A DNA stretch of 44,091 nucleotides, taken from an uncultured Ruminococcus sp. Lineage in GTDB: Bacteria; Bacillota; Clostridia; Oscillospirales; Acutalibacteraceae. The DNA lies in assembly GCA_902768825.1 (NCBI GenBank), contig CACXMR010000015.1, positions 1 through 44,091 of the forward strand, read 5' to 3'. Both the position numbers and the translations under genes were made by a program. The notes under the pieces were generated by a model that saw only the letters and a program-made list of their open reading frames with translations, did not search any database and was not told the DNA's origin. Position 1 is the first letter of the stretch. Each line of letters starts with the position of its first letter. Positions 3,523-44,091 of this stretch are shown piece by piece.

Positions 3523-4266
3523 ATGCTTAATGCGGGCGAAAGGTTAGAGCCTCTTGGGAGCGGGATCAGGGTCATAGTGTCAAGGGAACACGGGTTTGGC
3601 ACAGACACGGTGCTGCTTGCAAATTTTTCGTCTCCGGGAAGGAAGGATAAGGCCTGCGAGCTTGGCACGGGCTGCGGTGCAATACCTCTTATCTGGAGCC
3701 GTGACGGAGTGCCTGCCCATGTTACCGCTGTGGATATCCAGGAATCAGCCTGTTCGATGCTGAAAAGAAGCGTTGAGCTTAACTGCCTTGAGGACAGGAT
3801 AAGTGTGCTTCATTCGGACCTGCTGGATCTCAGGGGCAAGGTGGAGCTTTCATCCTACGACCTTGTGGTGTGCAACCCGCCATACAAGGCAGCGGGCACA
3901 GGGATCGTTAACCCTGAGGAGGCCCACAAGATCGCAAGGCATGAGTTTACTTGCACCATGGATGATATTATCAGGGTCGCAGCGGGATTGCTGAATTATT
4001 CGGGAAGGCTGTGCCTTTGCCAGCGCCCGGAGAGACTGTGCGATATTATTTGCTCAATGCGCCAGCACGGCATTGAACCCAAAAGGCTGCGCTTTGTCCA
4101 GCAGAGGACAACAAAGGAACCAAAGCTCTTCCTCATCGAGGGCAGACGCGGAGGCCGCCCCAATGGTCTGAGGACCGAGCCTGTATTGCTTATCGAAAAC
4201 CCTGCAGGGGATCTTTCGGATGAGATGATAGCAATCTACGGGGCGTATAAGGAGGATTATCTTTAA
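3523..4266 (+). CDS. trmN6: tRNA1(Val) (adenine37-N6)-methyltransferase, TrmN6/YfiC family
   Basis: This is an S-adenosylmethionine-dependent Rossmann-fold methyltransferase predicted to make m6A37 in tRNA(Val). The SAM-binding loop is CELGTGCGAIPL (about residues 45-56). The N6-adenine catalytic motif NPPY is at 118-121 and is followed by the family-typical insertion with NPEEAHKIARHE. At 247 residues the length is normal. GGGAG about 10 bases ahead supports ATG 3523. The gene ends directly at the rsmI start, and Firmicutes commonly pair these two RNA methyltransferases. The GIY-YIG gene (yazA) found between them in Bacillus is absent. Confidence 0.88.
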   Translation: MLNAGERLEPLGSGIRVIVSREHGFGTDTVLLANFSSPGRKDKACELGTGCGAIPLIWSRDGVPAHVTAVDIQESACSMLKRSVELNCLEDRISVLHSDLLDLRGKVELSSYDLVVCNPPYKAAGTGIVNPEEAHKIARHEFTCTMDDIIRVAAGLLNYSGRLCLCQRPERLCDIICSMRQHGIEPKRLRFVQQRTTKEPKLFLIEGRRGGRPNGLRTEPVLLIENPAGDLSDEMIAIYGAYKEDYL

Positions 4267-5097
4267 ATGTCAGGAAAGCTGTATGTAGTAGGTACGCCTA
4301 TAGGCAATCTTTCGGATTTTTCGCCGAGAGCCATTGAGACACTTTCACAGGTGGATTTTATTGCCGCAGAGGACACGAGAGTGACTATCAAGCTGCTTAA
4401 CAAATTCGGTATCAATACACCGATGGTCAGCTATCATAAGTATAATACTCAGGAAAGAGGAGACGAGATATGCAGCCGCATAGAGCAGGGTGAGGACTGC
4501 GCTATCGTCACGGATGCGGGAATGCCCTGTATCTCTGACCCCGGAGAACAGCTTGTCAGGCTTTGCGCCGACAGAGGCATAACCGTCTGTGCAGTGCCCG
4601 GACCTACTGCTCTTGCATCGGCACTTGCCATATCCGGACTGCCCACCGGAAGGTTTGCCTTTGAGGGCTTTCTGAGCGTAAACAAGCCCGGCAGGAGGGA
4701 TCATCTGATTTCTCTGATACACGAAAAGCGCACCATGGTGTTTTACGAGGCACCTCATAAGCTTTCGGCAACGCTGAGGGATATGCTGCAATATTTTGGC
4801 GACAGAAGGATATCCATAGTCAGGGAGCTGACGAAGATACACGAGGAAGTGATCCGCACCACACTTGCAGAGGCTGTAGAGAAATACGGCGATGACAGCC
4901 TGAAGGGTGAGATAGTGCTTGTCATAGAGGGAAGCACCGAACCGGAAAGGTCGGACAGTACCCTTGATGATGCTGTCGCTACTGCTAAAGAGCTTGCTAA
5001 GACCGGATTGTCATCTTCGGACGCCGCAAAGGAAAGCGCAAGGCTGACGGGCTTCAAAAAAGGTGACATATACAAGAGACTGCTCAGTGAAAAATAA
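4267..5097 (+). CDS. rsmI: 16S rRNA (cytidine1402-2'-O)-methyltransferase RsmI
   Basis: RsmI 2'-O-methylates C1402 in the decoding centre of the 30S subunit. It belongs to the tetrapyrrole methylase fold family. Visible motifs are VVGTPIGNLSDFSPRA at the N terminus, AAEDTR near residue 35, and TDAGMPCISDPGEQLV near residue 80. The C-terminal tail with SSDAAKESARLTGFKKGDIY is the small helical domain of RsmI proteins. The length of 276 residues is usual. The ATG follows the trmN6 stop with no gap, so translation is coupled. Confidence 0.95.
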   Translation: MSGKLYVVGTPIGNLSDFSPRAIETLSQVDFIAAEDTRVTIKLLNKFGINTPMVSYHKYNTQERGDEICSRIEQGEDCAIVTDAGMPCISDPGEQLVRLCADRGITVCAVPGPTALASALAISGLPTGRFAFEGFLSVNKPGRRDHLISLIHEKRTMVFYEAPHKLSATLRDMLQYFGDRRISIVRELTKIHEEVIRTTLAEAVEKYGDDSLKGEIVLVIEGSTEPERSDSTLDDAVATAKELAKTGLSSSDAAKESARLTGFKKGDIYKRLLSEK

Positions 5098-5133
5098 ATG
5101 TTCTGGGATCAAATACATAAGGGAGATGGTTTT

Positions 5134-5736
5134 ATGGATATCATACTTGCTTCGGCTTCCCCAAGAAGAAAGGGTCTGCTCAGCCTGATCTACAATGAGT
5201 TCAGGATCATTCCCTCGGATATCAGAGAGCTGGTGCCAAGAGATCTTCCGGTTGACAGGTGCCCGGAATACCTTGCCTGCATGAAGGCGGAGAATATTTC
5301 AAGGGGCCGTGAGAGTGCTCTTATCATCGGCTGTGACACCTCTGTGATTATCGAAGGAAAGATACTCAACAAACCAAGAAGCACCAATGACGCCCGTGCA
5401 ATGATGCAGCTGCTCTCAGGCAAGACCCATCAGGTGATTACAGGCTGCTGCCTCTATCATTTAGGACGCTTCAAAAGCTTCTCAGAGGTAACGGATGTGG
5501 AGTTCTATCCTTTGTCAGAGGAGGAGATCGAGCAGTACATAAAGACCTCCGAGCCCTATGACAAAGCCGGAGGCTATGGCATACAAAACAAGGGCGCACT
5601 GTTTATCAAGGGTATAAAGGGAGATTACTACAATGTGGTGGGTCTGCCCGTTGCGAGACTGAAACGTGAGATACAGGCATTCCTTGCACAGGAGGACGCA
5701 CCGGAGGAGCCGCCCGAGCCAAGAAAAAAAAGATAA
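5134..5736 (+). CDS. maf: Maf family nucleoside triphosphate pyrophosphatase
   Basis: Maf proteins hydrolyse non-canonical or modified NTPs (dTTP/UTP, or m7GTP, depending on subfamily) to NMP and pyrophosphate, as house-cleaning enzymes linked to septation and cell arrest. The N-terminal signature ILASASPRRKGLL and the catalytic stretch GCDTSVI (near residue 63) are clear, and EPYDKAGGYGIQ is the conserved late motif. I start at ATG 5134, which has AGGGAGATGG about 7 bases upstream and begins exactly at the family N terminus. The frame is open to an ATG at 5098, but that adds 12 residues the family lacks. The C terminus is a short proline- and lysine-rich tail. Confidence 0.92.
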   Translation: MDIILASASPRRKGLLSLIYNEFRIIPSDIRELVPRDLPVDRCPEYLACMKAENISRGRESALIIGCDTSVIIEGKILNKPRSTNDARAMMQLLSGKTHQVITGCCLYHLGRFKSFSEVTDVEFYPLSEEEIEQYIKTSEPYDKAGGYGIQNKGALFIKGIKGDYYNVVGLPVARLKREIQAFLAQEDAPEEPPEPRKKR

Positions 5737-5747
5737 AAAACTAAAAT

Positions 5748-5800
5748 ATACCGCACTTTTCCGGCATATAATCTATCAGATATGTCGGGAGGTGCGGTAT
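5748..5800 (+). promoter_or_regulatory. two-part inverted repeat covering the carboxypeptidase ribosome binding site and start
   Basis: ATACCGCAC (5748-5756) is the exact reverse complement of GTGCGGTAT (5792-5800), which includes the first two bases of the start codon. An inner pair, CCGGCATAT (5761-5769) with ATATGTCGG (5780-5788), also matches with one G-T pair. In RNA this would bury the GGGAGG ribosome binding site and the AUG. A TATAAT at 5767-5772 lies in the middle. If that is the active -10, the repeat acts as a DNA operator rather than an RNA hairpin. Confidence 0.55.
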
Positions 5801-6956
5801 GAATTATTTAAGGACTATTTCTGTTGTGTTGACATTATCTCTCATTGTCTCGCTGCTGAGTTTTTCCGGTATGCGTGTAATCGCCGTTACTGAGGATGAT
5901 CTAAGCGCACCATCTGCGGTGCTGATGGAAGCCTCTACAGGTAAGGTGCTCTTTGAGAAGGACTCACACGGCATAAGACCCTGCGCTTCCATAACCAAGG
6001 TAATGACGCTGATCCTTGTGATGGAGGCAATCGACAGCGGCGCTCTGAGCTATGATGAAATGGTGACTGCTTCCGCTCATGCGGCGTCCATGGGCGGCTC
6101 GGATATCTGGCTGGAGCCCGGAGAAACCATGACAGTGGAGGATATGATAAAGGCTACGGTGGTGGCAAGTGCAAATGATGCTGCTGTTGCACTGGCAGAA
6201 GCTGTCAGCGGCACTGAGGAGGAATTTGTCCGTCAGATGAACGAAAAGGCCGCTTCCCTGGGGATGAAGGATACGGTATTCAAAAACTGCAACGGACTTG
6301 ACGAGGAGGGTCATGTTACCAGCGCATACGATGTTGCACTGATGTCAAGAGAACTGCTAAAGCACGACAGAATCCTTGATTTTACAGGGATATGGATGGA
6401 CGAGCTGAGAGGCGGCAAGACCCAGATAGTGAATACCAACAAGCTGCTCAAGAGCTATAACGGCATCACAGGTCTCAAAACAGGGACTACCTCCCAGGCG
6501 GGAAGCTGTATCACAGCTACTGCAAAGCGTGACGGTCTGGAGCTAATAGCGGTAGTTTTGGGCTGCAGCACCGGAAACGACAGGTTTAGTGATGCCCGCA
6601 AGCTTCTTGACAGCGGCTTTGCGGGTTACATGATGTTTACACCGGAAATACCCGATGAAGCAATGACCACACTCACGGTCAGGAAGGGCATGACCGATTC
6701 TGTGGGGACCGTTACCGGAGAAGTAGGTTCACTGCTGCTGCAAAAGGGCAAGGGTAGCACCGCTCAGGCAAAGGTCTATCTTCCCGCCGAGGTAGAAGCC
6801 CCCATCAGCAAAGGCGACGTCATAGGCAAGCTGGTATACGAAAGCGACGGCAAGCAGATAGCAGAGTATCCGATTGCCGCCGCCGAGGACGTCAAGGAAA
6901 TAAACTTTTCTGATGTGTCGGGACTTGTTTTTTCAAGTCTTTCTGGTAGCGGCTGA
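5799..6956 (+). CDS. secreted D-alanyl-D-alanine carboxypeptidase (PBP5 type, peptidase S11)
   Basis: The enzyme removes the terminal D-Ala of peptidoglycan stem peptides outside the membrane. The N terminus is a hydrophobic signal sequence (about residues 5-29). The three penicillin-binding motifs are present: SITK (SxxK, near residue 63), SAN (SxN, near residue 127) and KTG (near residue 226). A C-terminal beta-rich PBP5_C domain follows (about 290-375). No second membrane helix or amphipathic anchor is obvious at the C terminus, so how it stays at the surface is unclear. GGGAGG at 5787-5792 precedes ATG 5799. The inverted repeat over this start suggests control at initiation. It may be dacF- or dacB-like, and I do not assign a symbol. 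Confidence 0.9.
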   Translation: MNYLRTISVVLTLSLIVSLLSFSGMRVIAVTEDDLSAPSAVLMEASTGKVLFEKDSHGIRPCASITKVMTLILVMEAIDSGALSYDEMVTASAHAASMGGSDIWLEPGETMTVEDMIKATVVASANDAAVALAEAVSGTEEEFVRQMNEKAASLGMKDTVFKNCNGLDEEGHVTSAYDVALMSRELLKHDRILDFTGIWMDELRGGKTQIVNTNKLLKSYNGITGLKTGTTSQAGSCITATAKRDGLELIAVVLGCSTGNDRFSDARKLLDSGFAGYMMFTPEIPDEAMTTLTVRKGMTDSVGTVTGEVGSLLLQKGKGSTAQAKVYLPAEVEAPISKGDVIGKLVYESDGKQIAEYPIAAAEDVKEINFSDVSGLVFSSLSGSG

Positions 6957-7126
6957 TAGTTCTTCAGTATCTTCATGCGGACATTGAAGCATATCTCCTC
7001 AATGACATACATTGCGAAGTCGGGAACGGCGAGCCGATAGGGGAGCCTCCCTTATTGCGTCCCCTGGATGAATTATCCTGCTGACGAAAGTAAGCACAAA
7101 GCGGGCAGCTTTGCGCCATGAAAATT

Positions 7127-7156
7127 GCCTGATTCCTGCCGGAATCAGGCTTTTAT
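7127..7156 (+). terminator. intrinsic terminator after the carboxypeptidase
   Basis: GCCTGATTCC (7127-7136), loop TGCC and GGAATCAGGC (7141-7150) form a perfect 10-bp stem followed by TTTTAT. It lies about 170 bases past the stop codon. Positions 6957-7126 hold no gene I can support. Confidence 0.8.
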
Positions 7157-7166
7157 CTTATACATT

Positions 7167-7509
7167 GGTGAGCTTCGCTCCCCAAACCCCTTAGCAGGGA
7201 CGCCGTCCCTGCACCCTGCAAGCCTTTGAAAAGGCTTGAGCGAAACTTTTGTGTTGTCGTTCTTGGTTAGACTATCAGCCGCGAGCAGCCAACTTAGAAA
7301 TCAGATTTTCTGCCCCCGCGAACAAGGGAGCGGCAGCTTGCCGCCGCCGGCGAGCCGCCGGAGCCAATTTCGCGATGAAACTCACTCTGACCATACAATT
7401 TAGTGTCCGCGTGAAGATAGTAACAACCGCGAGGGTGCAGTTTTGGTCTGTACACAAAGCGGAGCGCAGTGAAGCGCACCCTGCGAAATCGGGAGCGGCA
7501 GCTTGCCGC
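7167..7509. repeat. intergenic island of modular hairpins
   Basis: The 553-base gap between the two carboxypeptidases holds no credible gene. After the terminator come perfect hairpins: GCAGGGAC/GTCCCTGC (7194-7212) and CAAGCCTTT/AAAGGCTTG (7219-7238). GCGGCA-GCT-TGCCGC occurs at 7330-7344 and again at 7495-7509. The second copy abuts the stop codon of the minus-strand gene. The same modules recur near 18.2 kb and 36.2 kb, which marks this as a dispersed REP-like family. Confidence 0.8.
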
Positions 7510-8892
7510 TCACTCTTCCGGATCGTAGTCGTTTTCTGTGGTGAAGTTCAGACCGTAAAGCTCAAAAGCTTTCTTAAACATGGTGTTGCAGTCCTCATAC
7601 TTTGTGTAAAGAGTGTAACCGTTCATGGCTACGGCTATGAAGGTGTGGCCCTCCATGGTTGCGGAAGCTACGACTGAGGTGCCCGCTTCATCCGTAAAGC
7701 CTGTTTTCATGCCGTCGCTGTATTTTGAATAATAGCCCGAACCGCTGAGGATAAGCTTGTTTGAATTTGTCCAGGAGATGGTGCCGCCCTTTATCAGGTC
7801 CCACTCAACATAAGCCTTTGCACAGGAATCCCTCACAATGGGAATCGTTTTTGCAAAGTCGCCTATGACAGCAAGGTCGTGAGCAGAGGTGTAGTGGTTA
7901 TCGTCATGCCAGCCGTCAGGCGTGACAAAATGGGTATTTACAGCTCCGATCTGCTGGGCACAGTCGTTAACAAGCTCCATAAAGATCTTCACAGCCTCTT
8001 CGTTGGGGATCGTCTTGTCGTTCTTATAGATTCGTGCTGCATTTACAGCCATGGTATAGGCTGCGTCGTTGCCAGAGGGGAGCAGAAGCGCATCCATCAG
8101 CATCTCAAAGGTGAGCTGCATTCCTTCCTGGATATATGCCTTGCTGGATTCCCAGTCGCAGAGGTTGATCTCATCACCGACGGTGATAACGGTTTTCGGG
8201 TCCTTGATAATGCTGCTTGCAGTGATAGCTGTGAGCAGCTTTGTTGTGCTTGCAGGGTAGATCTTCTTTTTAAAGTCGTTTGTATATATGATCTCGTCTG
8301 CGGTTGCGTCATAGAGTGCCACATAGCTTGTTGTCAGTGTGGCATCCAGCTCATCCTGCACAGCCTGAGACAGTCTGTTATAATTGAGGGTATATTTGTG
8401 GGGATTGTAATAGACCGGCTTTTCCATGGGCTGATCTGCCGGTTTTTCGGATGATTCACTTATTTCTGAGGAGGACTGCAGGGAGGTCTGAGCTGCGCTT
8501 TCTAAGGCAGTGTCTGAGGATGCTTCTGCGTTATCATCCCTGGTCTGCTGTGAAACGGTGCTTTCGGAGGTCTGTGATTCCTTTTTGTCAGAGCCTGTGC
8601 AGGAAATATTCAGTAAAACGAAGGCAACCACAGCAAGCATAGCCACAAGCACAACTGCGGATATCATCATTGTCTTTTTCCTGCGGCGCTGTGTCTTCTT
8701 ATATTCAAGATAGCTCTTTCGCATGATATCGTCAGCGGAGCCTGATTTTTTAACAGGAGGTCTGCCCTGGGGAGGTCTGCCGCTGTGAGAGGGAGTCGGT
8801 CGCTGGGGATTGTTTTTCGTGGGGTGTGGGGGACGTCCGTATATCCTTTGCTGTTCAAAGTCAGAACGGTTTCTTCTATCATTTGGGTTCAT
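7510..8892 (-). CDS. membrane-anchored D-alanyl-D-alanine carboxypeptidase family serine hydrolase
   Basis: This is a 460-residue peptidase S11 protein. The first 75 residues or so are hydrophilic and rich in Arg, Pro, Asn and Gly. One membrane helix follows (about 78-98), then a Ser/Thr/Glu-rich linker, then the catalytic domain. Its motifs are STTK (SxxK), SGN (SxN) and KTG in DGMKTGFTDEAG. It is therefore a type II membrane enzyme acting on peptidoglycan, unlike the cleavable-signal enzyme it faces. There is no PBP5_C domain. The start is ATG at 8892, with AAGGAA about 11 bases upstream. An upstream in-frame start at 8937 lacks this spacing. A role in trimming cross-links is inferred from the family. 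Confidence 0.88.
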   Translation of the reverse strand: MNPNDRRNRSDFEQQRIYGRPPHPTKNNPQRPTPSHSGRPPQGRPPVKKSGSADDIMRKSYLEYKKTQRRRKKTMMISAVVLVAMLAVVAFVLLNISCTGSDKKESQTSESTVSQQTRDDNAEASSDTALESAAQTSLQSSSEISESSEKPADQPMEKPVYYNPHKYTLNYNRLSQAVQDELDATLTTSYVALYDATADEIIYTNDFKKKIYPASTTKLLTAITASSIIKDPKTVITVGDEINLCDWESSKAYIQEGMQLTFEMLMDALLLPSGNDAAYTMAVNAARIYKNDKTIPNEEAVKIFMELVNDCAQQIGAVNTHFVTPDGWHDDNHYTSAHDLAVIGDFAKTIPIVRDSCAKAYVEWDLIKGGTISWTNSNKLILSGSGYYSKYSDGMKTGFTDEAGTSVVASATMEGHTFIAVAMNGYTLYTKYEDCNTMFKKAFELYGLNFTTENDYDPEE

Positions 8893-37337: not shown

Positions 37338-37366
37338 GCGGGGACGGGAAAAAAGGAAGTGAATTG

Positions 37367-39955
37367 ATGAAAAAGCTTGTCATAGGGATACTTGCCCATG
37401 TGGATTCCGGAAAGACCACTCTTTCTGAGGCCATGCTTTATTGCTCAGGCAATATCAGAAGGCTGGGCAGGGTGGATCACGGAGATTCTTTTCTTGATAC
37501 CTTTTCTCTTGAGAGGGAGAGAGGTATCACTATTTTTTCCAAGCAGGCAATGCTTGAATATGGAGATACTCAGATAACCCTTCTTGACACTCCGGGACAT
37601 GTTGATTTTTCCGCAGAGACGGAGCGCACATTGCAGGTGCTGGACTATGCCGTGCTGGTTGTCAGCGGTACTGACGGCGTGCAGAGCCATACTCTCACCC
37701 TGTGGAGGCTTTTGCAGAGATACAGGGTGCCCTGCTTTATCTTTGTCAACAAAATGGACCTGCCCGGGGCGGATCAGAGTCAGATAATGCTTCAGCTCAG
37801 GGCAAGACTGAGCGAGAACTGCGTTGACTTTACAGAGAGGTCAGGGGCTGAATTTTATGAGAGGATAGCAGAGTGCGGCGACGAGCTTCTGGATCAGTAT
37901 TACAGCAGTGATAGGGTAGCACATGATGATATAGTGAAGGCCGTCCGTGAGCGCAGGGTGTTTCCCTGCCTTTTTGGTTCTGCGCTAAAAACAGAGGGAG
38001 TGGACAGCTTTCTTGAGGTCCTGTCGGAATATACTGTCATGCCTGATTACGGCGACAGCTTTTCCGGAAGGGTGTTTAAGATTTCTGAGGATAAGCAGGG
38101 CAGAAGGCTGACCTTCCTTAAAGTTACGGGGGGAAGTCTGCGGGTGCGTGAGATACTCCGTAGCGACAAGAACATTAACGGTGAAAAGGTCAGCCAGATC
38201 AGGATTTACTCCGGCGAGAAGTTTAGTGCGGTGGAGCAGGCGGATGCCGGAAGCGTGTGTGCCGTTACGGGAATAAGCTTCACATCCGCAGGAGACGGTC
38301 TCGGAGAAGCCGGAGCCTCTGCTTTGCCGGTGCTTGCCCCGGTGCTTACATATTCCGTGGAGCTGCCCAGGGAAATCAGTCCCCACACAGCTCTTGAAAA
38401 GCTGAAAATACTGGAAGAGGAGGACCCTCAGCTTAATGTAGTCTGGAACGAGCGCTTCGGGCGCATCCAGATCAGGGTGATGGGAGAGATACAGCTTGAG
38501 GTGCTCAAAAGCCTGATCCCCCAACGCTTCGGATTTGAGGTATCCTTCGGGACGGGCAGCATTATCTACAAGGAAACCATAACGGATACCGTGGAGGGAG
38601 TGGGTCACTTTGAACCTCTGCGGCACTATGCCGAGGTTCATCTCATTCTCAAGCCTGCGCCGAGGAACAGCGGTATACTCTTCCGGTCAGAGTGCCGGGA
38701 GGATCAGCTTGACCGCAACTGGCAGCGTCTGATACTTTCCAATCTCTATGAGAAGGATCATATCGGTGTGCTCACAGGCTCGCCCCTTACCGATGTGGAG
38801 ATAATCCTTGCTTCCGGCAGGGCGCACCCAAAGCACACTGAGGGCGGTGATTTCCGTCAGGCGGCACTGAGAGCCGTCCGTCAGGGACTCAGAAAGGCTC
38901 ATTCCGTCCTGCTTGAGCCGGTATATTCCTTTACACTTGAGCTGCCCTCCGAAAACATAGGGAGGGCGATAACCGACATACAGCAGATGAGCGGCAGCTT
39001 TGACCAGCCTGAGTCTGCCCCGGATAACATGACGGTCATAAGGGGCAGGGCGCCGGTGTCCGAAATGAACAGCTACGGCAGCGAGGTCCTTCGATATACC
39101 CACGGAAGGGGCAGGCTTGTGTGTGAGTTTTGCGGTTATGAAGAATGTCATAATTCCGAGGAGATCATCGGGAGCTTCTCCTATGACCCCGACAGGGACA
39201 CGGACAATCCCTGTGATTCTGTGTTTTGCTCACACGGGGCCGGCTTCATCGTCAAGTGGAACGAGGTGCCCGGATATATGCACCTGTCATCGGTGCTTGG
39301 TGAGCCAAAGCCCACAGCAAACGCCGAAGTCCTCAGAAACCGTGTGGCTTCCTCTGCAGGGAGAGGAGATATCTTTGCCCTTGACAAGGAGCTTATGCAG
39401 ATATTTGAAAGGACCTATGGTCCCGTCAGGCGCAGGCAGATATCCCAGCCCCGGGAGATCACGGCACCTCAGAAGGAACAAAAGGCCGGGAAATCTTCGC
39501 CGGACAAATATTCTGACCGGACAGAGTATCTCCTCGTTGACGGATATAATGTCATATTCTCCTGGGACGAGCTGAAAAAGCTTTCAGAGACAAACATAGA
39601 CGCCGCAAGGAATACCCTTGTCAATATTCTGTGCAACTATCGTGGCTACAGGAAATGCGAGCTGATATTGGTCTTTGATGCCTACAAGGTCAGGGGCGGT
39701 GCAGAGTCCGTGGAAAGGGTGGACAATATCAGCATAGTCTATACAAAGGAAGCCGAAACTGCGGATATGTACATAGAGAAGGTAACCCACTCCCTTGCAA
39801 AGGATCACCGTGTCAGAGTGGTAACCTCAGACAGGCTTGAACAGCTCATTATTCTCGGAAACGGCGCTCTGCGGATATCCTCAAGGGCCTTTCTTGCTGA
39901 GGTCAGGGAAGCCGAGGAGGAGATCAGGAGGATTATCTCAGAGCATAGTTATTGA
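37367..39955 (+). CDS. TetM/EF-G-like translational GTPase fused to a C-terminal YacP/NYN nuclease domain
   Basis: This is an 862-residue fusion. Residues 1-240 are a translational GTPase: AHVDSGKTT (G1), RERGITIF (switch I), DTPGH (G3), NKMD (G4) and GSALK (G5). EF-G-like domains II-V follow to about residue 640, with EPVYSFTLELPSENIGRAIT in domain V. A Cys-containing segment with RLVCEFCGYEECHN follows. A basic linker leads to a NYN_YacP domain (about 717-862) with LLVDGYN, VFDAYK, EAETADMYIEK and VVTSDRLEQ. These supply the four acidic residues expected of PIN/NYN nucleases. YacP of Bacillus (Rae1) cleaves mRNA in the ribosomal A site. The fusion may couple ribosome remodelling to mRNA cleavage. 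It resembles ribosomal protection proteins, but drug resistance cannot be assumed. The start is ATG 37367, 7 bases after AGGAAG. Confidence 0.85.
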   Translation: MKKLVIGILAHVDSGKTTLSEAMLYCSGNIRRLGRVDHGDSFLDTFSLERERGITIFSKQAMLEYGDTQITLLDTPGHVDFSAETERTLQVLDYAVLVVSGTDGVQSHTLTLWRLLQRYRVPCFIFVNKMDLPGADQSQIMLQLRARLSENCVDFTERSGAEFYERIAECGDELLDQYYSSDRVAHDDIVKAVRERRVFPCLFGSALKTEGVDSFLEVLSEYTVMPDYGDSFSGRVFKISEDKQGRRLTFLKVTGGSLRVREILRSDKNINGEKVSQIRIYSGEKFSAVEQADAGSVCAVTGISFTSAGDGLGEAGASALPVLAPVLTYSVELPREISPHTALEKLKILEEEDPQLNVVWNERFGRIQIRVMGEIQLEVLKSLIPQRFGFEVSFGTGSIIYKETITDTVEGVGHFEPLRHYAEVHLILKPAPRNSGILFRSECREDQLDRNWQRLILSNLYEKDHIGVLTGSPLTDVEIILASGRAHPKHTEGGDFRQAALRAVRQGLRKAHSVLLEPVYSFTLELPSENIGRAITDIQQMSGSFDQPESAPDNMTVIRGRAPVSEMNSYGSEVLRYTHGRGRLVCEFCGYEECHNSEEIIGSFSYDPDRDTDNPCDSVFCSHGAGFIVKWNEVPGYMHLSSVLGEPKPTANAEVLRNRVASSAGRGDIFALDKELMQIFERTYGPVRRRQISQPREITAPQKEQKAGKSSPDKYSDRTEYLLVDGYNVIFSWDELKKLSETNIDAARNTLVNILCNYRGYRKCELILVFDAYKVRGGAESVERVDNISIVYTKEAETADMYIEKVTHSLAKDHRVRVVTSDRLEQLIILGNGALRISSRAFLAEVREAEEEIRRIISEHSY

Positions 39956-39980
39956 CAGACAGGAAAAAATCTGTTATAGT
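39952..39980 (+). promoter_or_regulatory. sigma-A promoter of the B12-regulated operon, overlapping the upstream stop codon
   Basis: TTGACA (39952-39957) contains the TGA stop of the GTPase gene. TATAGT (39975-39980) follows after 17 bases, and TGT before it makes an extended -10. Transcription would start near 39987, just ahead of the riboswitch. Confidence 0.85.
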
Positions 39981-40005
39981 CAGATATGTCAGAAAAAATA
40001 TAAAG

Positions 40006-40120
40006 CTCTGCGGTCCCGTGCCTGGCGGTACGGATAAAGGGAATACCGGTGAGAATCCGGAGCAACCGTCATTACCGTATATGGCATTATGATGCCTGAA
40101 GTCGGAATACTTCCCGCAGA
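40006..40120 (+). promoter_or_regulatory. cobalamin riboswitch aptamer
   Basis: The conserved core GGGAATACCGGTGAGAATCC (from 40040) and the B12-box-like AAGTCGGAATACTTCCCG (from 40099) match the adenosylcobalamin riboswitch consensus. TCTGCGG (40007-40013) and CCGCAGA (40114-40120) close the structure as a terminal stem. The 382-base gap before the next gene holds only this RNA, its expression platform (about 40121-40310) and the ribosome binding site. Confidence 0.92.
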
Positions 40121-40273
40121 AAGCTTCGGCAATGCAGTCTTGGACGATGAAGAAGTGCAGCCGATCATGCATCGCAGTCTGTGCCGGAATGGTACAGGCT
40201 TGTGTTTGTTGTGTCTTTTTGCCGCAAAAACTGCGGTGTGACGCTTCCTTTTGGTGCCGATGCGGGTCTGTTG

Positions 40274-40305
40274 TGCTTCTCCGGAGTTACGGAGAAGCAT
40301 TTTTT
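40274..40305 (+). terminator. riboswitch-controlled intrinsic terminator
   Basis: TGCTTCTCCG (40274-40283), loop GAGTTA and CGGAGAAGCA (40290-40299) form a perfect 10-bp stem followed by TTTTTT. It is the probable OFF state of the riboswitch when cobalamin is bound. GAAGAAGTGCA (40149-40159) could pair with 40272-40282 and act as antiterminator. Confidence 0.88.
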
Positions 40306-40337
40306 GTTTCTGATCATTTCAGACAGGAGGATGAACA

Positions 40338-42395
40338 ATGAAAACGACAAAAAAATTGCTGTCAGCCCTTGTGGTATGCACTCTGGCAGTCCCGATGCTG
40401 GGCACGGGGGTGAATGCAAAGGAAAATGATCTGGGCAGCGTCAGGGTCATTATCGAAAACAATACCCTTTCCGAAGAAAACGGCGCCGACTGGACAGGCA
40501 CTCTTGCCGATCAGTGGGTAACTATCACCGAGGATGATTCGGCGATCACCGCATTCATGCAGGTCGTGGATGCTCAGGGCTTTTCCCAGACCGGTGCTCA
40601 GGAGGGCTACATCAGCGAGATCAACGGTCTTTCCGCAGAGGACGGCGGAGCCATGGGCGGCTGGATGTTCAGTCTTGACGATTGGTTTACAGACGAGGGA
40701 ATTGCCGCTTATACGGTCAGCTCAGGCAAGCTTGAGGACGGCGACGAGCTGCGCTTTTCCTATAGCTGCGCATGGGGTGGAGACCTTGACTATGACTGGT
40801 CGGGAGCCGACACCTCTCTGAAAAACGTGGTGTTCAGCGCCGGAGAGCTTGATAAGACCTTTGAGGGGACGACCTATGACTATGTTCTGACCCTTCCGGA
40901 GGAAACGGAGGCTATCACCGTAAGACCTGAGGTGCTGAATAAGGCTTACAGGTCAAAGGTATACAAGAACACCTACACTCCTGCGGAAAAGGGCACCGAC
41001 TACAAGTCAGGCAAGGAAATAGAAATAACTGACGGGGATGTAATCATTATCGGTGTCGCTTCTCCCGCATGGATGCAGAGTAACTACAACAACGCCCAGG
41101 AGAGCATATATCGCTTCCATATCAGTGAGGTGAGGACCACTGATCCTGTTGTGCAGGAGGCTGAGAGCCTGATAAACGCTATCGGCATGGTCACTCTTGA
41201 AAGCAGGGATAAGATAAAGGCTGCCCGCAGCTTTTTTGATAGTCTTACTGACGAACAGATGAGCAAGGTAAGCAACTATGAGCTTCTTGTGAATGCTGAG
41301 GAAGAATACGCAGGTCTTCTCCCGGACATGCCGAATATGGAGCTTTCCGAGCTGAGAGAGGCTGCGGGTCAGTATCTCAGTAAGGAGCCGGTTTTTGGAA
41401 ACGAGTGGGACATGATAGCCCTTACACGCCTGGGTCATGCCTCGGACAGCATGAAGGAAGGCTACATCGCAAGCGTCAAAGAAAAGCTCACAGACGCCGA
41501 TTCTCCAAGGCTCAGCGCTACACGGTCTACTGTAAATTCGGGCGTGGTTGCGGCTCTGACTTCTGCAGGTGCCGACCCCACTGACTTTTACGGATATGAC
41601 CTTACCCAGCCCCTGACGGATATTGAGTATGTCACAAGCCAGGGTGTCAATGGTGCGGTCTATGCCCTCATAGCCCTTGACAGTCACGGCTATGGCAATG
41701 ACGACATTCGTGCAAAGCTTATCTCCGTGATACTTGCGGCTCAGGAAAGCGACGGTGGATGGACAATCGACACCTGGACAGGCATAGATGACGGTTCTGA
41801 CGCTGATATGACCGCAATGGCGCTCCAGGCACTTGCGCCCTATGCAGGGACGGATGATAATGTCAGAGAAGCTTCATCCCGTGCCCTTGACTTCCTTGAA
41901 AAGAACCAGACTGACCTTGCGGGCTTTGTATCATACGGCAGCGAGGACTGCGAGAGCTGTGCTCAGGTAATGACGGCTCTCTGTGCCCTGAATATCGACC
42001 CGGAGACAGACGAAAAATTTACAGCAAGCGGCTATGGAGTGTTCAGGTCGCTCCAGCGCTTCTATAACAGCGATGACATGGGATTTACTCATCTTTTAGG
42101 GGGAGAAAGCAACTACATTTCCTCTTATCAGGCATATATTTCCGTGGCGGCATATTACAGGCTGGTTAACGGCATGACATCTCTCTTTGATATGAGCGAT
42201 ACAGAGCTTGCAGTATTCAGAGCTGAGGAAGCTTCAACGACTGAAAGCAGCACCCAAAGCTCCGCACCTGTTGTGGTGCCCGATGAAAAGCCGGTTCCCA
42301 CTGGTGAACCGTCCGCTCCGGCAATGACCCTTATCCTTGCACTGTTTACAGCCGCAGCGGCTGCCGTGATTTTAAGAGGACGCAGAGCAGAGTGA
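40338..42395 (+). CDS. surface protein with DUF4430 and alpha/alpha-toroid domains, probable cobalamin-binding protein
   Basis: The layout over 685 residues is: signal peptide (1-27), DUF4430 (about 35-150, with GGWMFSLDDWFTDEG), a cadherin-like beta-sandwich (about 160-263), a helical spacer (268-325), an alpha/alpha toroid of prenyltransferase type (about 335-612), a Ser/Thr-rich stalk (630-660) and a membrane helix (661-679) with RGRR after it. DUF4430 is the transcobalamin-like C-terminal domain, and an alpha/alpha barrel is the other transcobalamin domain, here in reversed order. The toroid shows QESDGGW and DMTAMALQALAPY. No LPxTG sorting signal is present, so the tail anchors it in the membrane. 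It is the first gene after the cobalamin riboswitch, with AGGAGG about 7 bases upstream. B12 binding is inferred from fold and regulation. Confidence 0.8.
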   Translation: MKTTKKLLSALVVCTLAVPMLGTGVNAKENDLGSVRVIIENNTLSEENGADWTGTLADQWVTITEDDSAITAFMQVVDAQGFSQTGAQEGYISEINGLSAEDGGAMGGWMFSLDDWFTDEGIAAYTVSSGKLEDGDELRFSYSCAWGGDLDYDWSGADTSLKNVVFSAGELDKTFEGTTYDYVLTLPEETEAITVRPEVLNKAYRSKVYKNTYTPAEKGTDYKSGKEIEITDGDVIIIGVASPAWMQSNYNNAQESIYRFHISEVRTTDPVVQEAESLINAIGMVTLESRDKIKAARSFFDSLTDEQMSKVSNYELLVNAEEEYAGLLPDMPNMELSELREAAGQYLSKEPVFGNEWDMIALTRLGHASDSMKEGYIASVKEKLTDADSPRLSATRSTVNSGVVAALTSAGADPTDFYGYDLTQPLTDIEYVTSQGVNGAVYALIALDSHGYGNDDIRAKLISVILAAQESDGGWTIDTWTGIDDGSDADMTAMALQALAPYAGTDDNVREASSRALDFLEKNQTDLAGFVSYGSEDCESCAQVMTALCALNIDPETDEKFTASGYGVFRSLQRFYNSDDMGFTHLLGGESNYISSYQAYISVAAYYRLVNGMTSLFDMSDTELAVFRAEEASTTESSTQSSAPVVVPDEKPVPTGEPSAPAMTLILALFTAAAAAVILRGRRAE

Positions 42396-42428
42396 TTATA
42401 TTCCATGCTGCCGGAAAGGAGGATGTCC

Positions 42429-43334
42429 GTGTCGGCATTACCCAAAAAGCATATCAAGACAATAATTGCGGCTATAGTGATAGCGGCTGCCCTGACAGCG
42501 GCATTCTTCCTGACGGGCAGCCCAAAAAACGATAGCTCAGATAATCCGTCTTTGCCGCAAAGCAGTGTTGTTTCTGAGCAAAGCCCACCCTCAGAGCATA
42601 GCCCGGAGTCATCAGCGGTCAAAAGCATCGGGGATAAAGCTGAGAGCATTGATGATAAGCCTCTCCCGTCAGATTCGGGTGAGGCTGTATCAGTGTCGGC
42701 GGCAAATTCCTCATCACCATCCGTGCAGGATGATCCCGTATCAGTCATCGTGGAGAGCCTTGCCTTACCGTCAGAAGAATCCTTTGCTCCGTCAGAGCTG
42801 TCGGACAATCCGGTGAGTGAGCCTGCTTCCCTTGAAGAAAGCAGTGAGGAAGAAAGCTCTTTTGAGCAGGTCAGTGCCGAGACTCCGGTGCAGATTTCGT
42901 CAGAGCAGTCCGAGTCCTTGGAATGTACAATCTCCGTATCCTGTGAGACTCTGCTTTCCCACATGGAGGAGCTAAAAAAGAACAAGCGCTCTCTTGTGCC
43001 GGCGGACGGGATGATTCTGTCTCCGTTGACGGTTGAGATAAATGAGGGAGAGAGCGTCTTTGACCTGACAAAAAGGGTCTGTCGGGAAAGAGGCATACCC
43101 TTTGAGTTTACCATGACGCCGATCTACAACACCGCCTATATTGAGGGGATATTTAATCTTTACGAGTTTGACTGCGGGAGCGGTTCGGGTTGGGTCTACA
43201 CCGTCAACGGGGTACAGCCCTCTGTAGGCTGTTCGGACTACCCTCTCAATAAGGGGGATATCCTTGAGTGGCACTACACCTGTCGGCTCGGAAAGGATAT
43301 CTCAGCCCCGGCAAGGAGGGATGACAATGCATAG
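42429..43334 (+). CDS. membrane-tethered DUF4430 (transcobalamin-like C-terminal domain) protein
   Basis: This is a 301-residue protein with an N-terminal membrane helix (about 9-30), a Ser/Pro/Glu-rich flexible stalk (about 31-165) and one C-terminal DUF4430 domain (about 195-292). The domain shows FDCGSGSGWVYTVNGVQPS and LNKGDILEWHYTCRLG, the most recognisable part of the family. It has no catalytic motif. It should stand on the outer membrane face beside the first DUF4430 protein and could pass ligand to the ECF transporter. The start is GTG 42429, six bases after AGGAGG. ATG 42423 touches that site, and ATG 42405 has none. The stop overlaps the EcfT start. Confidence 0.78.
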   Translation: MSALPKKHIKTIIAAIVIAAALTAAFFLTGSPKNDSSDNPSLPQSSVVSEQSPPSEHSPESSAVKSIGDKAESIDDKPLPSDSGEAVSVSAANSSSPSVQDDPVSVIVESLALPSEESFAPSELSDNPVSEPASLEESSEEESSFEQVSAETPVQISSEQSESLECTISVSCETLLSHMEELKKNKRSLVPADGMILSPLTVEINEGESVFDLTKRVCRERGIPFEFTMTPIYNTAYIEGIFNLYEFDCGSGSGWVYTVNGVQPSVGCSDYPLNKGDILEWHYTCRLGKDISAPARRDDNA

Positions 43335-44091
43335 CAGAGCCTTTTCTCAGGTGCATCCCTTAGTGCAGTTCTGCTTTTTCATGCTTGTGATGCTCTTTAC
43401 AATGCTTGTGTCCCAGCCGGTGCTGCTGCTGATATCCTTTTCCTGCTCAATGGTCTGCGGTATGCTTTCGGGCGGCAAAGGCTCCGTCAGGAGCTTTTTT
43501 CGTTTTATCCTGCCATCATCACTTCTGATAAGCGTCATCAATCCTCTCTTTGACCATGCAGGGGTCACTATCCTTTTCTACCTGCCCGACGGCAATGCCT
43601 TCACGCTGGAATCCGTCGTCTACGGTCTTGTGTCGGGTCTGATGCTTTCCTCGGTGATGCTGTGGTGCCTTTGTCTGCGCCATACAATGACCTCTGACAG
43701 AGTGATATATCTCTTTGGCAGGGCGGCTCCGAGGCTTGGCCTGCTGCTATCCATGATAATCAGGTTCATACCCCAGCTTGCAGGACAGTTCCGAAGGGTG
43801 CGCACTGCCCAGCGCTGTCTTGGCAGGGATATCAGTCAGGGGAATATCTTCCAAAGGACAAGGAACCTTGCAAGGCTGATCTCCTCGGTAATAGGCTGGT
43901 CGATGGAGCACTCGCTGATAACTGCGGATTCCATGAGGAGCAGGGGCTACGGCTCCGGCAGGAGGACGTCCTTTGCTCTTTTCCGTTTTGAGCGGCGTGA
44001 CGGGCTGATACTCACGGCTATGCTTTTACTTTCATGCTGTGTGTTGTGGGGCTGCATAACGGGAACGGGGGAGTATTACTATTTCCCGTGC
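43327..44091 (+). CDS. ECF transporter T component (EcfT/CbiQ family), truncated by the window end
   Basis: The frame stays open to the last base, so only the first 255 residues are seen. At least four hydrophobic helices are present (near residues 10-35, 55-75, 87-112 and 215-235). The motif DSMRSRGYG near residue 203 matches the Ala-Arg-Gly coupling motif through which EcfT contacts the ATPases. EcfT joins a substrate-binding S component to the EcfA ATPases for vitamin import. Position in a cobalamin-riboswitch operon suggests a CbiQ-like or B12-dedicated module. The S component and ATPases would be downstream. The start is ATG 43327, with AAGGAGGG six bases upstream, overlapping the previous stop. 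Confidence 0.85.
   Translation, partial: MHSRAFSQVHPLVQFCFFMLVMLFTMLVSQPVLLLISFSCSMVCGMLSGGKGSVRSFFRFILPSSLLISVINPLFDHAGVTILFYLPDGNAFTLESVVYGLVSGLMLSSVMLWCLCLRHTMTSDRVIYLFGRAAPRLGLLLSMIIRFIPQLAGQFRRVRTAQRCLGRDISQGNIFQRTRNLARLISSVIGWSMEHSLITADSMRSRGYGSGRRTSFALFRFERRDGLILTAMLLLSCCVLWGCITGTGEYYYFPC

Follow-up and report, generated by a model that had tools for sequence, protein, structure and literature searches.

A probable dedicated operon for corrinoid uptake, encoding transcobalamin-like surface proteins, in an uncultured Ruminococcus

The contig CACXMR010000015.1 of an uncultured Ruminococcus sp. (assembly GCA_902768825.1) was analyzed over its full length of 44,091 nucleotides, referred to here as the window. 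At its end (39952-44091) it carries genes that very probably belong to a dedicated uptake operon for corrinoids (vitamin B12) with transcobalamin-like surface proteins. Downstream of a cobalamin riboswitch lie the genes for P1, a protein with a DUF4430 domain and an alpha/alpha toroid, for P2, a second DUF4430 protein on a stalk, and for EcfT, the transmembrane partner of an energy-coupling factor (ECF) transporter that continues on another contig of the same genome. A surface trap for B12 that feeds an ECF importer is well supported, while corrinoid binding and the closure of the two domains over the ligand are predicted from the fold, the order of the genes and relatives with both domains in one chain. 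Capture of B12 by two surface proteins and hand-off to an ECF transporter had been proposed earlier in a sequence-only reading of the window; the proposal gains support from a CbrT-like S component, the presence of EcfA and EcfA', and models that rank transcobalamin first.

Organization of the operon and its riboswitch

The features of the operon are as follows; all coordinates refer to the window unless a locus is named.

39952..39980, plus strand: promoter-like site TTGACA-17-TATAGT, sigma-70-like, 11 of 12 consensus positions
39994..40132, plus strand: cobalamin riboswitch aptamer RF00174, compact form, 33.5 bits versus a gathering score of 31.5
40273..40300, plus strand: intrinsic terminator of the leader (expression platform), hairpin and T run, stable hairpin in the leader fold
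40338..42395, plus strand: P1, 685 aa, with signal peptide-like N-terminus, DUF4430, beta-sandwich, alpha/alpha toroid and anchor
40434..40766, plus strand: P1 N-terminal DUF4430, residues about 33-143 (Pfam match 73-130; strands and helix in the model)
40809..41129, plus strand: P1 beta-sandwich, cadherin-like (PF12733, 17.6 bits, below the cut-off of 24.2; model strands 161-264)
41343..42167, plus strand: P1 alpha/alpha toroid, residues about 336-610 (profile and model)
42294..42392, plus strand: P1 C-terminal anchor with VPTGE, hydrophobic stretch and basic tail (alignment A3; model helix 659-684)
42405..43334, plus strand: P2, 309 aa, with N-terminal transmembrane helix, Ser/Glu/Pro stalk (helix and stalk by eye) and C-terminal DUF4430
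42921..43289, plus strand: P2 DUF4430 (PF14478, 57.8 bits versus a cut-off of 23.8; alignment A4)
43327..44091, plus strand: EcfT (CbrV-like), open at the contig end and 294 aa once completed on contig C14 (CbiQ/EcfT PF02361, 42 versus 25 bits)
L055:11742-14387, minus strand: 881-aa EcfA-EcfA'-S protein, directly after EcfT, with two ECF ATPases and an S component

The gene order given by the sequence-only reading, i.e. riboswitch, toroid/DUF4430 protein, stalked DUF4430 protein and EcfT, is confirmed by Rfam, Pfam and the coordinates of the open reading frames (ORFs). The aptamer and the T-run hairpin at 40273-40300 do precede P1, which starts at 40338. Of the tight overlaps described there, the one between P2 and EcfT (8 nt) stands; P1 and P2 are instead separated by a gap of 9 nt. 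A further overlap of 19 nt, between EcfT and the next gene, spans the contig join. The aptamer is the sole Rfam match at gathering score within the window and the only cobalamin riboswitch detected in the genome. The leader fold has a z-score of -4.05. A second, weaker-looking terminator-like hairpin lies at 40176-40200; by chance, 0.5 promoter-like sites and 0.3 terminators are expected in the leader stretch. Position 39952 coincides with both the final codons of the upstream gene and the -35 hexamer. Apart from P1 and P2, the genome has no DUF4430 match at E<=0.001.

The ECF importer and its substrate

Over 99 bases, the end of the window and the end of contig C14 have identical sequence, and the same gene order in relatives backs the join through this overlap. 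EcfA genes and an S component, which the sequence-only reading suggested seeking beyond the contig end, are found next on C14: EcfA, EcfA' and S follow EcfT as a single chain of 881 residues. Its first ~520 residues comprise two ECF ATPase domains in two stretches (TIGR04520, 339.9 against 315 bits; TIGR04521, 330.9 against 330 bits), and its last 290 residues form the S component (PF07155, 39.4 versus a cut-off of 26.7 bits). When the S component is compared with all solved chains, the sole significant match is 6fnp_A, the S component of ECF-CbrT (E 1.6e-11), the next one having an E-value of 1.7. A downstream S component clearly specific for another vitamin would tell against B12 uptake; the one present is CbrT-like and not clearly another vitamin's. 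Its best Pfam name, PF07155 (ECF-ribofla_trS), might suggest specificity for riboflavin or some other vitamin; with CbrT as the only significant match among solved chains and a cobalamin riboswitch upstream, we consider this highly improbable.

Cobalt transport of the CbiMNQO type was considered as a candidate and rejected: EcfT reaches 35.6 bits against the cut-off of 111.8 for the CbiQ equivalog TIGR02454, and the S component is CbrT-like. The same two results speak against the broader idea that the system imports cobalt, a B12 precursor or a lower-ligand piece (cobinamide, alpha-ribazole) and not complete cobamides. This idea can draw on the membership of EcfT in the CbiQ family and on the available text for ECF-CbrT, according to which that transporter carries cobinamide too (PMC5997447); we judge it quite unlikely, though cobinamide may be among the substrates. 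Because a separate general ECF module sits elsewhere, on contig C12 ahead of a gene that resembles truA by eye, the importer of the operon is regarded as dedicated.

Domain architecture and fold of the surface proteins

In P1, the DUF4430 domain (PF14478) scores 33.3 bits, above the cut-off of 23.8. The toroid on its own remains under the Pfam cut-off (SQHop_cyclase_C, 20.7 versus 26.1 bits), and Prenyltrans is matched at E<=0.01 by 17 sequences of alignment A2, whose 37 rows are one-chain relatives as well as toroid-only and DUF4430-only stretches, including two pieces of the window. An AlphaFold2 (AF2) model of P1 has a mean predicted local distance difference test (pLDDT) of 82.5 and a predicted template modelling score (pTM) of 0.51, and among solved structures transcobalamin ranks first (E 1.3e-4). 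The earlier description of P1 as DUF4430 plus alpha/alpha toroid thus agrees with the Pfam match to DUF4430, the Prenyltrans matches among the A2 rows and the model. The reversed domain order relative to the animal carriers was also recognized correctly: P1 reads DUF4430-toroid, and P2 contributes a DUF4430.

For the relative L054, in which both domains lie in one chain, a model based on 37 aligned rows attained a pLDDT of 83.0 and a pTM of 0.64. Ranks 1-9 of its matches to solved structures are occupied exclusively by transcobalamin, intrinsic factor and haptocorrin (E 4.9e-8 to 3.9e-6, 526-563 columns), the transcobalamins being from rat, human and one entry without a named species; terpene cyclases rank below these B12 carriers. 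In both models the DUF4430 regions show strands surrounding one helix. According to the models, both domains appear to share the fold of the animal carriers, and their relative placing is not reproduced.

A different ligand for P1 and P2, either hydrophobic or a sugar, with the toroid as a relative of terpene cyclases or lyases and an incidental link to the riboswitch, seems very unlikely to us. By sequence the toroid is indeed closest to squalene-hopene and other terpene cyclases, and the name DUF4430 carries no information on a ligand; by structure, B12 carriers outrank the terpene cyclases, and a riboswitch precedes P1 in 19 of 19 cases (see below), in addition to the CbrT-like S component.

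The residues D490 and T492 of P1, part of a D-x-T-A-M motif, are invariant across the alignment; conserved toroid residues of this kind may correspond to the B12-contact residues of transcobalamin. The anchor motif VPTGE corresponds to VxTGD in many relatives, and T655 is nearly invariant (alignment A3), from which we infer that the anchor may be used by a sortase. A single-sequence search with P2 yielded noise only (E<=10).

One-chain relatives and the pairing of domains

The toroid followed by DUF4430 in one protein, i.e. the order of transcobalamin, is found in ten relatives (L054, L079, L082, L083, L090-L093, L095 and L117). Between the two domains these proteins possess, by eye, a hairpin of two hydrophobic stretches together with basic residues, which looks like a fusion of the anchor at the C-terminus of P1 with the one at the N-terminus of P2. 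EcfT directly follows the one-chain gene in nine of the ten; for L095, no EcfT was detected within the 1 kb in hand. When two genes are fused in one set of genomes and separate in another, their products usually cooperate. The occurrence of the domains both joined and apart is the best evidence that the toroid of P1 pairs with a P2-type DUF4430. The support for a ligand held between the two proteins is accordingly indirect and comes from the one-chain relatives.

A tree of 75 toroids (65 split, 10 one-chain), obtained by a quick method, requires two changes of form, both forced by well-supported branches, and does not distinguish fusion from fission. For some of its rows labelled as split, the partner lies outside the sequence that was retrieved; the split label also covers three large multi-domain ORFs (L049, L050, L114) with a toroid and then a weaker DUF4430 match. 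Separately, the one-chain genes L079:5365-7182 and L082:1501-3279, from two species of one genus, are near-identical in their hairpin and DUF4430 halves and differ in their toroid halves, which suggests recent recombination between species.

An extra DUF4430 is common; it either forms part of the toroid protein, which is the arrangement of P1, or is encoded by its own gene upstream (e.g. L092, L099-L102). L048 and L052 showed no DUF4430 other than that of the P2 type, although the profile may miss divergent copies. Since this domain is a separate gene in some relatives and undetected in others, its N-terminal copy in P1 probably has an accessory role. The alternative is that P1 binds alone: its own DUF4430 would cap the toroid in reverse order, and P2 would be a second binder or a protein for the hand-off from P1 to the S component. 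Both domains are present in P1 and in the toroid proteins of the 20 loci with the order of the window, and Burroughs et al., in the available text, describe toroids either before or after the domain and suggest that the two cooperate (PMC1796856). In the ten one-chain relatives, on the other hand, the DUF4430 after the toroid is of the P2 type, and the toroid proteins of L048 and L052 lack a detected DUF4430, none being detected upstream of them either and a P2-type gene following them; the profile can again miss divergent domains. We regard binding by P1 alone as possible and rather doubtful.

As to a two-piece transcobalamin, in which the P1 toroid and the P2 cap would close in trans, with loading and release through the parting of P2 from P1 at the ECF transporter, we see the chances as about even. 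The same estimate applies to its corollary that chains with one hairpin (L054, L092) may be present-day bacterial equivalents of the ancestral form of the animal carriers.

Conservation among relatives

Among 45 distinct loci (L032-L079), 20 share the order of the window: DUF4430-toroid, DUF4430, EcfT, ATPase-ATPase-S. P1 and P2 lie ahead of EcfT in all 20; in one of them, L044, EcfT is split over two frames. The remaining loci are cut by contig ends (15), are variants (9) or have no ECF genes (L047). The variants include ATPases apart from S, toroids without detected DUF4430, one-chain forms, extra large proteins and L071, where no toroid was detected. L057-L079 were fetched through EcfT and therefore give no independent word on its presence. 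For 23 loci fetched by P1 alone, nine end early at contig ends (four of the nine reach EcfT), and EcfT, ATPases and S are present in 13 of the other 14, L047 being the exception. When 391 genomes were sampled from the class to which the window belongs, 141 of them matched one or both domains of the one-chain relative L054.

The riboswitch goes together with P1. RF00174 is matched at E<=0.01, once each, in 19 of 24 other genomes of the genus (11 of the 19 above the gathering score), and all 19 riboswitches are located upstream of a P1-type gene on the same strand within ~0.5 kb; this placement was determined by locus coordinates in 15 cases and separately in four (G010, G011, G014, G021). A riboswitch is present in 21 of the 23 surveyed relatives for which P1 (in G032, a DUF4430 gene) and the sequence ahead of it were available. 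With cmscan at the gathering score, it was detected in five of 18 loci (L033, L040, L044, L045, L091), several of the searched stretches stopping short of the operon start or beginning inside the operon; the loci L040, L036, L060 and L079 of this search are the genomes G018, G007, G004 and G027 of the genus survey. The 19 riboswitches of the genus are compact (17 of 19 measure 123-153 nt) and low-scoring (23.5-46.7 bits, versus 107-125 bits in G032 and G037 from other families), and are possibly a reduced variant.

These counts bear on another explanation, namely that the ECF part imports B12 by itself and that P1 and P2 serve corrinoid storage, the choice of cobamides or the acquisition of B12 from a host carrier. 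ECF-CbrT of L. delbrueckii is described, in the accessible part of the report, as a cobalamin importer, both in liposomes and in E. coli cells (PMC5997447), and L071 encodes its ECF genes with no toroid detected. Against this stand the position of P1 and P2 ahead of EcfT in 20 of 20 loci with the layout of the window, the adjacency of P1 to the riboswitch and the match of the fold to B12 carriers; storage and selectivity would, moreover, still count as handling of B12. We therefore hold this explanation to be unlikely. L071 (genome G032) itself contains, on the minus strand at about 4046-8664, a DUF4430 protein whose N-terminus is lipobox-like, followed by EcfT, ATPases and S, with a strong riboswitch of 114.9 bits.

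Need for external corrinoids

CbiC, the sole marker of corrin-ring synthesis that was searched, was not found in the genome; it is present in 3 of 16 searched genomes. The genome encodes one B12-binding protein, with the domains of a B12-type methionine synthase (MetH), in which the Met_synt_B12 activation domain was not found. Because CbiC is missing and a B12-type methionine synthase is present, corrinoids from outside are probably needed, and the organism is probably auxotrophic.

Proposed mechanism and points against it

We propose the following model. At low adenosylcobalamin, transcription would proceed past the riboswitch terminator, the combination of aptamer and terminator pointing to an OFF switch. 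P1 and P2 would be exported and held at the surface, as their signal-peptide-like, transmembrane and sorting-like sequences suggest. The P1 toroid and the P2 DUF4430 would act as the alpha and beta domains of transcobalamin and close over the corrinoid, in line with fold, gene order and one-chain relatives. The CbrT-like S component may then receive the ligand, which EcfT and the joined ATPases would import, a transport step predicted from the components; in the cell it would finally serve the B12-type methionine synthase.

Several observations weigh against this interpretation. The matches of the L054 model to the carriers have a root mean square deviation of 13-18 A and a template modelling (TM) score of 0.28-0.39 of the query; hence, the domains match singly, and the model contains no closed sandwich. 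Only eight of the 12 matches of the P1 model at E<=0.001 are transcobalamin, four being alpha-2-macroglobulin-like. At the sequence level, phmmer with P1 against solved chains gave nothing at E<=1 and thus no animal carrier; profile searches of the PDB with the toroid, one-chain and DUF4430 alignments returned terpene cyclases or noise and no carrier; and the Pfam family of the animal carriers was matched by none of the 37 members of A2. P1 contains its own DUF4430 and might bind without P2. In the relatives, the toroids of L047 are not accompanied by an ECF cassette, and no toroid was detected in L071; a riboswitch was found neither in G004 and G027 (2 of 23 relatives with an upstream stretch) nor, at the gathering score, in 13 of the 18 loci searched by cmscan. 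Finally, auxotrophy is judged by one marker gene, and in G019, from the same genus, the operon and CbiC occur together.

Relation to known systems

The idea of B12 capture is not new in kind, as Burroughs, Balaji, Iyer and Aravind (2007) predicted such scavengers. According to the available text of their study, SLBB (DUF4430-type) domains are joined to toroids, on either side, in Gram-positive bacteria; a second paralogous surface protein is often present, together with CbiO-like and CbiQ-like genes; the bacteria usually have no key B12 synthesis genes; and the authors proposed B12 scavenging, complexes formed by the paralogues at the surface, and transfer to animals (PMC1796856). The operon conforms to this description in its DUF4430-toroid protein, its paralogous second protein and its CbiO/CbiQ-like neighbours. 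The riboswitch, the CbrT-like S component, the ATPase-S fusion, the one-chain form with a membrane hairpin and a structural model are, as far as that text extends, found only here. What the present analysis adds are the CbrT-like S component, the riboswitch counts, the one-chain forms and the structural match. No published experiment on toroid/DUF4430 proteins was found in the literature searched, whose coverage leaves out most subscription papers. A SEED-style name, additional lipoprotein of predicted cobalamin ECF transporter, could be traced to no paper in this literature.

With transcobalamin, intrinsic factor and haptocorrin the system appears to share the fold of a toroid and a beta-grasp cap. 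It differs from them in that two membrane- or wall-held proteins are involved, that an extra DUF4430 and a beta-sandwich precede the toroid, that there is no match at the sequence level, and that delivery is proposed to a transporter, whereas the animal carriers deliver to an endocytosis receptor. Their single chain of toroid and then beta-grasp is absent from the window and present in the one-chain relatives.

The published excerpts on the importer show CbrT as the B12 S component in L. delbrueckii (Santos 2018, PMC5997447) and use CbrUVT as the name of the B12 ECF transporter (Rodionov 2019, PMC6593275). EcfT, two ATPases and a CbrT-like S component are common to ECF-CbrT/CbrUVT and the operon. 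By these excerpts, the latter is distinguished by the union of ATPases and S in one 881-aa chain, by the surface proteins in the operon and by a dedicated module, CbrT of L. delbrueckii sharing its module with other S components. BtuG and BtuH of Bacteroides likewise capture B12 at the surface or membrane ahead of a transporter; in the available descriptions their folds differ from those of P1 and P2, being a beta-propeller and a protein whose C-terminal domain is without known relatives, respectively (PMC6143338, PMC8941943). No chain of the BtuG/BtuH type appeared in single-sequence searches with P1 (E<=1) or P2 (E<=10).

For Firmicutes, less is known of cobamide capture, as stated in the accessible text of PMC8941943, and little is known of such capture outside the membrane in Gram-positive bacteria of gut and rumen. 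If binding of B12 holds true, the system would explain how these bacteria compete for a scarce vitamin, and would provide bacterial counterparts of the human B12 carriers as well as small two-part B12 binders for study.

Neighbouring genes and further observations

The gene upstream of the operon (37364-39955, plus strand) encodes an elongation-factor-G-like GTPase with a C-terminal YacP-like NYN domain in a single chain, which we take to be of the tetracycline ribosomal-protection type. Giant ORFs of ~2000 residues with DUF4430 and toroid occur at L045:4191-10085 and L050:4443-10487, the latter just upstream of an operon of toroid, DUF4430 and ECF genes. L045 also has a second EcfT gene (L045:13254-14165), located directly after the S component.

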